Below are positions 2,697 through 5,514 of a stretch of DNA of 18,331 bases, piece after piece. A program made the translations under genes and the position numbers. The stretch is from positions 1-18,331 of the forward strand of contig JABCYT010000003.1 in NCBI GenBank assembly GCA_013290035.1, read 5' to 3'. Positions within the stretch are counted from its first letter, which is position 1. Each line of letters opens with the position of its first letter. The stretch is from Alphaproteobacteria bacterium (GTDB lineage Bacteria; Pseudomonadota; Alphaproteobacteria; Reyranellales; Reyranellaceae). Below the pieces are notes generated by a model. It searched no databases and was not told the origin of the DNA. It saw only the letters and a list, made by a program, of their open reading frames with translations.

Positions 2697-4714
2697 TGTT
2701 CGCCAAGATCCTGATCGCCAACCGCGGCGAGATCGCCTGCCGGGTCATCAAGACGGCGCGGCGGCTGGGCATCAAGACCGTCGCGGTCTATTCCGACGCC
2801 GACCGCCTGGCGCGCCACGTCGCGATGGCCGACGAAGCCATCCACATCGGCGGCTCGCCGGCGCGCGAGAGCTATCTGGTCGCCGACAAGATCATCGCCG
2901 CGGCCAGGCGCACCGGCGCCGGGGCGATTCACCCGGGCTACGGCTTCCTGTCCGAGAATGCCGGCTTCGCCGAGGCCTGCGCCAAGGCCGGGCTGGTCTT
3001 CATCGGCCCGCCGCCCGCCGCCATCCGCGCCATGGGCTCCAAGAGCGAAGCCAAGAAGATCATGGAAAAGGCCAGGGTGCCGCTGGTGCCGGGCTATCAC
3101 GGCGACGACCAGTCGGCCGAACTGCTCGCGCGGGAGGCGGCCCGCATCGGCTTTCCCGTGCTGATCAAGGCGTCGGCCGGCGGCGGCGGCAAGGGCATGC
3201 GGGTGGTCGAGAGCGCCGACAAATTCGCCGACGCGCTGGCCGGCGCCCAGCGCGAGGCCAAGGCCTCGTTTGCCGACGATCACGTGCTGGTCGAGAAGTA
3301 CCTGACGCGGCCGCGCCATATCGAGATCCAGGTTTTCGCCGATTCCCACGGCGGCTGCCTCTACCTGTTCGAGCGCGATTGCTCGATCCAGCGTCGCCAC
3401 CAGAAGGTGATCGAGGAAGCGCCGGCGCCCGCCATGGACCCGGCACGGCGCAAGGCGATGGGCGAGGCGGCGGTCGCCGCCGCCCGGGCCATCGGCTACC
3501 AGGGCGCCGGTACGGTCGAGTTCATCGCCGACCAGGCGGGCACCTTCTTCTTCATGGAGATGAACACCCGCCTGCAGGTCGAGCACCCCGTCACCGAGGC
3601 GATCACCGGCCAGGACCTGGTCGAATGGCAGCTCGTCGTGGCGGCCGGCGGGAAGATGCCGCTCGCCCAGGACCAGCTTCGCATCGACGGCCACGCCGTC
3701 GAGGTCCGGCTCTATGCCGAGGACCCGGCCCGCAACTTCCTGCCGTCGACCGGGACGCTGGTGCATCTGCGGCTGCCGCAGGAGGGCCCGCACGTGCGTG
3801 TCGACACCGGCGTCCGTCAGGGCGACACGGTGACCCCGTTCTACGATCCGATGATCGCCAAGGTCATCGTCCATGACCGCGACCGCGCCTCGGCGATGCG
3901 CCGCATGGCGGCGCTGATGGGCGAGACCGAGGTGGTGGGCGTCACCACCAATGCCGCGCTCCTGAAGGCGCTGTGTTCGCATCCGGCCTTCGTTGGCGGC
4001 GAGATCGACACCGGCTTCATCGAGCGCCATCGCGACGAGCTCTTTGCCAAGCCGGCCGCCGCAGGCGACCGCATCTTCGCCATCGCCACGTTGGCGCGCC
4101 TGGTCGAATGGCAGGACGCCGCCGACGCTGCCGCACGCTCTTCCGGCGATCCGTGGTCGCCGTGGAATGGGCAGGGCGCCTTCCGGCTGCTCGATGAGGG
4201 CCATGACGCGGTGCACTGGAAGGACGGCGATCGCGAGGCGACGGTGATCGCCCGCCGCCGGCGCGACGGCGGCATCGGCCTGGAGCTGCCGGGCGGTGAT
4301 CTTGAGGCCAGCGTGCAGCGCGCCGACGATGGCAGGCTGCTCATTGGTCTGGGTGACGACACGTTCACGGCCACGGTGGTGCGCCGGCAGACGGCCGACG
4401 GCATCGACTACACCGTGTTCGCCGACGGTGCGAGCCGGCGGCTGCGCCTGGTCGATCCGCTCGATGTCACGCAATACGAGGCAGCTGGCGCTGCAGAAGC
4501 TGCCGTGCGCGCGCCGCTGCCGGGCAAGATCATCGATCTCCGGGTCAAGCCCGGCGACACGGTGAGCAAGGGCCAGCCGTTGCTGGTGCTCGAAGCCATG
4601 AAGATGGAGCACACGCTGACCGCTCCCGCCGACGGCACGGTCAAGAGCGTGCGCTATGCCGTCGGCGAACAGGTGGCCGAAGGCGCGGAGCTAGTGGAGT
4701 TCGAGGCAAGCTGA
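2696..4714 (+). CDS. liuD: 3-methylcrotonyl-CoA carboxylase, alpha (biotin carboxylase plus biotin carrier) subunit
   Basis: This is the 672-residue biotin-containing subunit. Its N-terminal biotin carboxylase uses ATP and bicarbonate to carboxylate biotin, and its C-terminal carrier domain delivers it to the beta subunit. The biotin carboxylase start ILIANRGEIACRV is at 6-17, the ATP-grasp loop AGGGGKGM at 161-168 and EMNTRLQVEHPVTE at 288-301. A middle BT-type linker follows, then a biotinyl domain with EAMKMEHT and biotinylated Lys636. The length fits MCC/acyl-CoA carboxylase alpha subunits (about 650-670). ATG 2696 overlaps the crotonase stop (TGATG). The final 33 bases of this gene (4682-4714) recur exactly at 5482-5514 on the far side of the toxin-antitoxin pair, so the gene's 3' end appears to be the boundary of an insertion that left the protein intact. 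Confidence 0.93.
   Translation: MFAKILIANRGEIACRVIKTARRLGIKTVAVYSDADRLARHVAMADEAIHIGGSPARESYLVADKIIAAARRTGAGAIHPGYGFLSENAGFAEACAKAGLVFIGPPPAAIRAMGSKSEAKKIMEKARVPLVPGYHGDDQSAELLAREAARIGFPVLIKASAGGGGKGMRVVESADKFADALAGAQREAKASFADDHVLVEKYLTRPRHIEIQVFADSHGGCLYLFERDCSIQRRHQKVIEEAPAPAMDPARRKAMGEAAVAAARAIGYQGAGTVEFIADQAGTFFFMEMNTRLQVEHPVTEAITGQDLVEWQLVVAAGGKMPLAQDQLRIDGHAVEVRLYAEDPARNFLPSTGTLVHLRLPQEGPHVRVDTGVRQGDTVTPFYDPMIAKVIVHDRDRASAMRRMAALMGETEVVGVTTNAALLKALCSHPAFVGGEIDTGFIERHRDELFAKPAAAGDRIFAIATLARLVEWQDAADAAARSSGDPWSPWNGQGAFRLLDEGHDAVHWKDGDREATVIARRRRDGGIGLELPGGDLEASVQRADDGRLLIGLGDDTFTATVVRRQTADGIDYTVFADGASRRLRLVDPLDVTQYEAAGAAEAAVRAPLPGKIIDLRVKPGDTVSKGQPLLVLEAMKMEHTLTAPADGTVKSVRYAVGEQVAEGAELVEFEAS
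4682..4714 (+). repeat. Left copy of a perfect 33-bp direct repeat flanking the toxin-antitoxin cassette
   Basis: Positions 4682-4714 (beginning GGCGCGGAGCTAGTGG, ending GAGGCAAGCTGA) are the last codons and stop of the alpha-subunit gene and are identical to 5482-5514. Allowing one mismatch (A4681 versus G5481) the match extends to CCGA at 4677-4680 / 5477-5480, 38 bp in all. The two copies are exactly 800 bp apart. Bases after the TGA differ at once (AGAAATT versus TAAAAGC), as expected if the repeat ends there. Confidence 0.9.
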
Positions 4715-4723
4715 AGAAATTAG

Positions 4724-5152
4724 CTATACGCCGCGGCTGACTGGCAATCCCAACATGTTGCCGGCCTTCAGGAACGTCTTATCGAGGCTGAAGATGGTGT
4801 CCATGCGCCGATTCGCGCCGATGGCTAGATGCAAGGCATCGCCAGCCCGCAGCCCAGTTCGATAATGGCTGAGATATTCCCGAGCAAGGCCGAAGTCGTC
4901 GGCCTCGGGCAGGAGAACGACGAAAGACTCATCGACCATCGTATCGAAGCCCGAGCCCACGGTCTTGGCTGCCTCGGCAGTCAAGCCGCCCATTCGGACA
5001 TGGCGCGCGAGCAGCGAAGAGAATTCCACCTTTGTCCAATGACTGATCGTCAGTTCCCCTGCGGGAAGGGTTCCGACGAAGCGTTCGACCTGTGCGCTTG
5101 TCGCCTCCTGCCGAACGAGCGGGGTGAGGAAACTCGTATCGAAATACAGCAT
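4724..5152 (-). CDS. vapC: PIN-domain ribonuclease toxin, VapC family
   Basis: This 142-residue protein has the four acidic residues of the PIN metal site: Asp5 in LYFDTSFL, Glu43 in KVEFSSLLA, Asp105 in RAGDALHLA and Asp124 in SLDKTF. Length and layout match VapC-type toxins, which cut specific RNAs (often tRNA or rRNA) with Mg2+ or Mn2+ and are inhibited by the partner antitoxin. The ATG (5152-5150) overlaps the antitoxin TGA by one base (TGATG), so the two are translated together. The gene converges on the alpha-subunit gene with only 9 bases between stops. Together with its antitoxin it lies between perfect 33-bp direct repeats. The stretch looks visibly less GC-rich than its neighbours, although composition was not computed. 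Confidence 0.9.
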   Translation of the reverse strand: MLYFDTSFLTPLVRQEATSAQVERFVGTLPAGELTISHWTKVEFSSLLARHVRMGGLTAEAAKTVGSGFDTMVDESFVVLLPEADDFGLAREYLSHYRTGLRAGDALHLAIGANRRMDTIFSLDKTFLKAGNMLGLPVSRGV

Positions 5153-5385
5153 CAGTGCTGTTCGTCCCGCATCTGACGCAGCAGCTTGGCGCTGGACGTC
5201 CCCCAGCGCGGCACGGTGGCGCGGAAGGCGGCAAGCGAGCGAACCGGCTTTTTGGGCTGCTCGATCGGGGACAGTCGCGCTACGGGCTTGCCATGGCGGG
5301 TGATGATCACGCCTTCGCCGCTCTCGACCTTGTCGATGAGCTCGCTAAGGCTGGCTTTCGCTTGGGCAAGGTTCACGGTAACCAT
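5152..5385 (-). CDS. Type II antitoxin, Phd/YefM family
   Basis: This 77-residue protein starts [20 protein letters not shown] and continues with [15 protein letters not shown] (29-43), the DNA-binding and dimerisation fold of the Phd/YefM family. The C-terminal part (about 44-77, basic, with DEQH at the end) is the expected toxin-binding tail. It is first in a two-gene operon and overlaps the toxin start by one base, the usual order for antitoxin-toxin pairs. A perfect palindrome (5397-5416) sits 12 bases before the start codon and next to a likely -10 box, consistent with autorepression by the antitoxin alone or with the toxin. The ribosome site (GAGAAA) is weak. Phd-type antitoxins commonly partner PIN toxins. 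Confidence 0.9.
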
Positions 5386-5396
5386 AGGTTTTTCTC

Positions 5397-5416
5397 ATGA
5401 CCAGAAAACTGGTCAT
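5397..5416 (-). promoter_or_regulatory. Palindromic operator of the toxin-antitoxin operon
   Basis: ATGACCAG (5397-5404), spacer AAAA, CTGGTCAT (5409-5416) is a perfect 8-bp inverted repeat. It lies 12 bases upstream of the antitoxin start and abuts the likely -10 box, where Phd-type antitoxins bind to repress their own operon. Function is inferred from position and symmetry. Confidence 0.7.
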
Positions 5417-5445
5417 ATTCTAGCCGGCCACGCCGACCCTGACTA
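5417..5445 (-). promoter_or_regulatory. Likely sigma-70-type promoter of the toxin-antitoxin operon
   Basis: Read on the minus strand, TAGAAT (5422-5417) matches TATAAT in five of six positions. TAGTCA (5445-5440) matches TTGACA in four of six. The spacing between them is 17 bases. Transcription would begin around 5410, inside the operator palindrome. The promoter lies entirely within the repeat-bounded segment, so the cassette carries its own expression signals. Confidence 0.45.
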
Positions 5446-5481
5446 CCACCTCGCGATATCAGGGTGATGGCGGCCACCGAG

Positions 5482-5514
5482 GGCGCGGAGCTAGTGGAGT
5501 TCGAGGCAAGCTGA
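5482..5514 (+). repeat. Right copy of the 33-bp direct repeat (duplicated 3' end of the alpha-subunit gene)
   Basis: This segment is identical to 4682-4714. It still reads ELVEFEAS and stop in the original frame, but no carboxylase sequence lies upstream. An in-frame ATG at 5467 gives a 15-residue frame (MAATEG, then the shared tail) with no clear ribosome site; it is probably not a gene. It marks the right edge of the insertion, after which the co-directional gene at 5548 follows. Confidence 0.9.

Follow-up and report, generated by a model that had tools for sequence, protein, structure and literature searches.

A Phd/VapC module lies between two copies of the liuD gene end

The window analysed here is the whole of an 18,331-nucleotide stretch (coordinates 1–18331 of contig C3) from an alphaproteobacterial genome bin that comprises 822 contigs and is 74% complete. 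It carries liuD, an intact gene for a biotin-dependent carboxylase alpha subunit (2696–4714, plus strand), behind which a Phd/VapC-type toxin–antitoxin (TA) pair is enclosed by two copies of the liuD gene end. The copies form a perfect 33-bp direct repeat at 4682–4714 and 5482–5514, both on the plus strand and 800 nt apart from start to start, and both terminate with the liuD stop codon; the left, proximal copy consists of the final 10 codons of liuD and its TGA. When extended to 43 nt the two are 93% identical. This is the longest direct repeat in the window, for which the maximum in 100 order-3 Markov simulations was 19 nt, and in its own genome, as far as this is complete, the 33-mer occurs at these two places only, even with up to three mismatches allowed. 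LiuD matches its relatives along the entire length and scores above cut-off with the Pfam models Biotin_carb_N/C, CPSase_L_D2 and Biotin_lipoyl, while BT_MCC_alpha remains below it. The names liuD, uraA, DUF2189 and aminotransferase as used in this text are provisional labels, some of them taken over from a preliminary description of the window.

The two copies are separated by 767 bp (4715–5481), the minus strand of which encodes a PIN-domain toxin (PF01850) and a Phd antitoxin (PF02604). The antitoxin gene (5152–5385, minus strand, 77 aa; PF02604 E 5.4e-13, also TIGR01552) precedes vapC (4724–5152, minus strand, 142 aa; PF01850 E 2.4e-08), with which it shares a 1-base overlap, and the Pfam PIN and PhdYeFM models both pass their cut-offs. 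The toxin gene is convergent with liuD and its stop codon lies 9 nt behind that of liuD. An alignment of VapC with five relatives contains 54 invariant columns, including D5, E43, D105 and D124, and as predicted from sequence there is nothing unusual about the genes for a pair of this kind. Upstream of the antitoxin gene is a perfect palindrome, ATGACCAG-AAAA-CTGGTCAT (5397–5416), which is likely to be its operator; a similar palindrome can be seen by eye in the relatives G037, G019, G060 and G042, and less clearly in G036.

Between the palindrome and the right copy lies a linker of about 60 nt (5421–5481), presumably donor DNA, which holds a 7-nt inverted repeat (5436–5442/5459–5465). No convincing counterpart of the linker was found in 75 genomes of the family, the best match outside its own genome being about 20 nt (E 0.003). 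The idea that it contains a remnant of uraA was based on a 19-nt exact match to the neighbouring uraA-like gene of relatives, and was rejected because 3 of 300 null queries did equally well; a second match to the uraA-like gene falls on that gene's opposite strand.

The two TA genes are the only ones recognised in the insert (overlapping open reading frames were outside this search). No integrase, transposase or other recombinase gene was found in the 767 bp, nor any terminal inverted repeat, the best 20-nt match within 60 nt of both ends being 11/20. The preliminary description is borne out on the exact repeat, the Phd/VapC pair with its likely operator and the missing mobility genes and terminal repeats; the linker goes unmentioned there.

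Carriage of the cassette by a phage or plasmid was considered and rejected. VapC had no match among phage records and 58 among plasmid records, all below 60% identity and 34–37% in eight of them, while neither the 33-mer nor a degenerate gene-end pattern had a match in viral contigs. The VapC alignment retrieved no solved structure at E 0.01, and neither TA protein was matched in a defence-system library.

Relatives retain the empty site

We compared 40 liu-locus stretches from relatives in the genus, 37 of which hold liuD. Eleven of the 37 also hold the NMT1/THI5-like gene that comes next in the window (5548–6423, plus strand; PF09084, 23.1 bits against a cut-off of 20.5), and the remaining 26 are uninformative on the liuD–NMT1 junction. 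The empty site is present in eight of the 11 informative relatives (G024, G020, G010, G038, G051, G040, G027 and G052): here a single copy of the gene end is followed by the NMT1-like gene, with a gap of 40–53 nt between the liuD and NMT1 matches. G046 and G030 have other DNA, of 1.2 and 2.4 kb, between the two genes.

In the window, the right copy is followed by a spacer with a ribosome-binding-site-like stretch (5515–5547, plus strand) that has the layout of the eight empty-site relatives. The bases past the stop in this copy (TGATAAAAGCGG) resemble those of the empty sites (mostly TGATAGAAG), and those past the left copy do so less. Since native downstream DNA follows the right copy, this represents the original end of the gene, and liuD is now completed by the left copy. 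We conclude that the cassette is a real insertion with a target duplication which keeps liuD whole, so that the insertion of some 800 bp regenerating the gene's 3′ end, as first proposed, stands. A second carboxylase gene as the source of the right copy can be dismissed, because homology extends over just 33–43 nt and the native liuD–NMT1 spacer follows. Further downstream (6424–6440) the window is without the presumed uraA-like permease gene that several relatives have between NMT1 and the gene after it; it is also absent from G020, G051 and G040.

Four codons, GCG, CTA, GCA and AGC, occur in both window copies, in none of the eight empty sites, and not in G036 (by eye). That these private states are common to both copies indicates that the duplication is young and was made from the resident gene. 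Judged from the codons, it would either be younger than these changes or its copies would have been homogenised.

A vapBC cassette also occupies the same gene end in G036, 3 nt behind the liuD stop. The NMT1-like gene of this relative (L032/L077) has a frameshift right behind its start codon and matches only residues 2–125 of 291. In a tree of VapBC sequences the window groups with G037 (92/90) and G036 with G019 and G060, although a constrained grouping of the window with G036 was not rejected (approximately unbiased test, p 0.154). Separate insertions at one gene end would be the likelier origin of the window and G036 cassettes. The G037 cassette (L095, 13978–14636), the nearest in the genus to that of the window, is at the same locus between the next two genes, which we take to be DUF2189-like and aminotransferase-like. 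G019 and G060 (L034 and L035) each have a related vapBC pair, whose two neighbouring genes are the same in these two genomes and whose vapC stop overlaps or abuts the start of a presumed helicase-like gene.

Some other TA cassettes carry the same scar

Scans of TA loci covered 85 and 100 such loci, 80 VapC relatives, a self-BLAST of 265, and 28 class-wide ParE loci, sets which partly overlap. They yielded nine TA insertions besides that of the window with target duplications of 27–280 bp, ten in all, with cargo of vapBC, ParE and AbiE types. The stop codon of the target lies within the copy at parB with ParE/ParD in G056 (90 bp, 94% identity), at an enoyl-CoA hydratase gene with a ParE/RHH pair in G048 (57 bp, 95%), at msrB with AbiEi/AbiEii in a Hydrogenophilus bin (127 bp, 99%), at msrB with vapBC directly beside that insertion in the same bin (72 bp, 83%), and at a RES gene with vapBC in L366, L367 and L368, which represent one event (57–280 bp, 80–86%). 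It is not in the copy at a dienelactone-hydrolase gene with Phd/ParE in G054 (61 bp, 97%), where the corresponding scar in G048 (L187) has a more diverged copy of 39 bp (85%), nor at a PIN gene with vapBC in G013 (27 bp, 96%). The remaining two come from Alphaproteobacteria outside the genus: in L450 the start of the gene next to a ParE/ParD pair is duplicated (222 bp, 97%), and in L457 a ParE-type toxin lies behind a topoisomerase gene (88 bp, 91%). Counting the window, the duplicated block contains the stop codon and ends 0–2 nt past it in six of the ten events (by eye).

Some targets carry more than two copies. L365 (DYFL01000068.1, 1–3678) has three occurrences of the msrB gene end, one within the gene itself, one behind AbiEi/AbiEii and one behind vapBC, as if two TA systems had landed successively at the same end. 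Parts of the RES gene end likewise occur three times around the vapBC pair of L366 (1920–1963, 2648–2691 and 3449–3526), as if this site had been struck more than once. Elsewhere, in L402, a segment of about 2.1 kb that immediately precedes a vapBC relative is enclosed by a 102-bp repeat (88%; 367–468 and 2586–2687).

The enoyl-CoA hydratase site provides a series of states. In five empty relatives (G009, G016, G008, G022 and G054) the gene and downstream matches overlap by a single gene end of 53–57 nt. Both copies are present in G048, where downstream DNA resembling that of the empty sites follows the distal one, while G064 and G037 have the same pair with only a remnant of the distal copy, CGTTAG or GGGGTGCTAA. 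In these three relatives the start codon of the pair abuts the hydratase stop codon. G063 and G024 have a related pair behind such a gene, with no matching downstream DNA. The simplest reading of the series would be one insertion with duplication followed by decay of the copy, and different joints made in separate exchanges would also fit.

Direct repeats appear enriched but are not general at TA loci

A survey was made for repeats of 25–300 bp with at least 85% identity and a spacing of 400–1500, a rule that leaves out the msrB pairs of L365, one being too far apart and the other 83% identical. Such repeats were found at 22 of 263 distinct TA loci (1.08 Mb) and at 4 of 69 control loci (0.73 Mb), the controls being own-genome contigs, arbitrary stretches of relatives and acetyltransferase loci, unmatched for accessory-gene density. 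A rough base-weighted binomial test gives p 0.006; this becomes 0.0085 when the window, the locus that had motivated the survey, is excluded. For repeats of at least 33 bp, a threshold chosen post hoc, there are 16 TA loci and no controls; leaving out the window and treating the RES loci as one reduces this to 13 against 0 (p ~0.001, under the same post hoc threshold). We regard these enrichment tests as weak.

Among the 22 loci, the TA pair sits within a target duplication at L052 (the window), L063, L182, L248, L268, L366, L367, L368, L450 and L457, the repeat pair that satisfies the rule in L366 being a further partial copy at the same RES gene. At L156, L225, L441 and L400 another small gene is flanked. 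In L400 (3421–4440) this is a Fic-family gene that has a thiolase-like gene on one side and, on the other, an exact 29-bp copy of the beginning of the thiolase-like gene, in what appears to be the same scar at a gene 5′ end. Eight loci were set aside: L337 has neighbouring similar genes, L340, L387 and L404 resemble repeat families, no gene end was recognised in L373, L403 and L463, and L382 has stretches of about 30 nt, GCCTAAC...GCGCCAA, behind successive small genes beside a vapBC relative (1349–1377 and 1892–1921), which look like integron attC sites. As for the controls, the repeats in L190, L201 and L311 owe their match to coding motifs (by eye), and the fourth is L484.

Origin of the duplication

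We think it probable that the Phd/VapC module entered immediately after the liuD stop and that its target was duplicated in the process, in a manner akin to 'insertion with long target duplication'. Foreign DNA carrying the TA module would join the chromosome at a gene end, and illegitimate or template-switch repair would attach its other end at a point within the gene, slightly upstream. The sequence between these joints would thereby be doubled, amounting to 33 bp here and 27–280 bp elsewhere, and selection would retain those products in which the target gene is whole. TA pairs resist loss through post-segregational killing, and the pair may persist in this way as the distal copy, which serves no purpose, decays. 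RecA-dependent excision could take place between the repeats, formation of an excision-capable circle is possible, and a dedicated mobility enzyme would be unnecessary.

Several observations weigh against this account. The G036 cassette has neither a right copy nor the native spacer, and requires a later deletion or a separate insertion; the copies in G013 and G054 do not include the gene end, so that an extra deletion is required there. Selection for an intact gene accounts for a joint that is not before the stop codon but not for one so close behind it, and a random joint leaves the 0–2 nt boundary in all six events unaccounted for. Within the survey, besides the imperfect match of the controls, 241 of the 263 TA loci have no such repeat, 10 of the 22 inspected loci (8 independent) show a TA pair inside a target duplication, and the four loci that flank non-TA genes indicate that the scar is not confined to TA pairs.

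Some of these points are met by a different origin of the repeat, namely homology-facilitated illegitimate recombination between a strain already carrying liuD–vapBC and an empty-site strain. A homologous crossover in liuD or NMT1 would be combined with an illegitimate joint inside the liuD end, and the duplication would then mark the spread of an existing cassette allele and not its first insertion. The boundary at the stop codon would in that case come from the donor allele, a cassette like that of G036 with no right copy or native spacer is what an illegitimate joint on the other side should leave, and the distal copies of G064 and G037 do end at different points. Against this, the vapBC of G036 is not placed beside that of the window, the identity of the two copies calls for a donor that is a conspecific not seen so far, and the first insertion is left unexplained. 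We consider exchange of this kind possible but unlikely.

The target-duplicating insertion that we prefer could be generalised, in that bare TA pairs of several families would share a common recombinase-free route that sets them down precisely after a stop codon and restores the gene end beyond the insert. Most chromosomal TA loci would go back to old insertions and have lost their distal copy to decay. In this broad form the proposal is quite doubtful. If true, any gene end would be a harmless landing site for TA modules.

The preliminary description had likened the locus to att-site integration, and a tyrosine or other recombinase acting in trans at the gene 3′ end would make the two copies attL and attR. 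Such an enzyme would regenerate the gene end, as integrase-mediated insertion does, and could explain why in six events the block ends with the stop codon. The liuD, parB, enoyl-CoA hydratase, msrB and RES targets have no common sequence that is evident by eye, the blocks at the other cassettes derive from unrelated genes and vary in length between 27 and 280 bp, and the 767-bp insert is without a recombinase, insert sizes being those of a bare TA pair. The 33-mer was found neither in the GTDB genome set (from which its own record was perhaps excluded) nor in the viral contigs searched. As the targets lack an evident common sequence and the insert a recombinase gene, the evidence does not support att-site integration, which we consider very improbable.

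The bin is fragmented, and both kinds of haplotype occur in the genus, so it might be asked if the contig merges two haplotypes from a mixed population, one with the cassette and one with the empty site. The right junction (5476–5482) shares few bases with the empty haplotype, which means that a real read should span it, and the same scar recurs in other bins and genera; an assembly artefact is highly improbable. Ordinary transposition of an insertion sequence or miniature element would also give direct repeats around a foreign segment with a known empty site, but is hardly credible here, given that 33 bp far exceeds usual target duplications, that repeat lengths vary elsewhere, that the insert has no transposase and an inverted match at its ends of 11/20 nt at best, and that none of the loci seen contains a relative of the cassette with a transposase or with inverted repeats at its ends.

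Comparison with known systems

How chromosomal TA pairs arrive between ordinary genes, with no mobile element near, is an old question. It becomes testable through a scar that recurs in several TA families and genera and of which the full form, a remnant and the corresponding empty sites have been found, and the occurrence of this scar around TA cassettes hints at movement of the modules without a transposase. The scar dates insertions, names their landing sites and can be searched for in any genome set, such that its value lies less in the present locus than in its recurrence as a route to study the spread of TA systems.

The nearest precedent is found in restriction-modification systems, for which 'insertion with long target duplication' has been described, after Nobusato et al. 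2000 and Furuta et al. 2010 (excerpts of PMC3874152 and PMC1643837). According to the same excerpts, this involves an addiction-type pair, long and variable repeats derived from the target (of the order of 100 bp) and an empty allele, all of which are seen here, and the accessible portion of PMC3874152 names only restriction-modification systems for it. A literature search, mostly without subscription papers, returned no report of a long target duplication for TA cassettes. The present loci have the empty allele (in eight relatives at liuD and five at the hydratase gene), a repeat identical at 33/33 nt and neither transposase nor inverted repeats. They differ from the restriction-modification insertions in that the cargo consists of type II or type IV TA pairs (Phd/VapC in the window), that the hosts are Proteobacteria other than Helicobacter, and that 6 of 10 blocks stop at the stop codon of the target. 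The window's own cargo has the composition of a type II Phd–VapC system, its operon combining a PIN toxin with a Phd/YefM antitoxin, and the toxin is predicted to inhibit growth and the antitoxin to neutralise it.

Integrase-driven elements insert at gene 3′ ends as well, sometimes with later loss of the integrase. The likeness is in the regenerated gene end and the direct repeats at both ends; unlike such elements, the cassettes described here have no integrase and no constant core, their inserts measure 0.7–2 kb and their targets are unrelated. Mobile chromosomal vapBC pairs are also known from Sulfolobus islandicus, where, in the part of PMC3718332 available, all vapBC loci but one are flanked by degenerate insertion sequence copies, whereas the insert in the window is without an insertion sequence and its repeats derive from the target gene. 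Transposed genes of Arabidopsis, as presented in the available part of PMC2869330, resemble the TA cassettes in having moved and in being enclosed by direct repeats (>30 bp) whose sequence corresponds to that of the empty orthologous site, the mechanism proposed being recombination between repeats and insertion of a circle, but these are plant genes. Among the systems compared, the window locus is best fitted by insertion with long target duplication as known from restriction-modification systems, here with a TA pair as its cargo.

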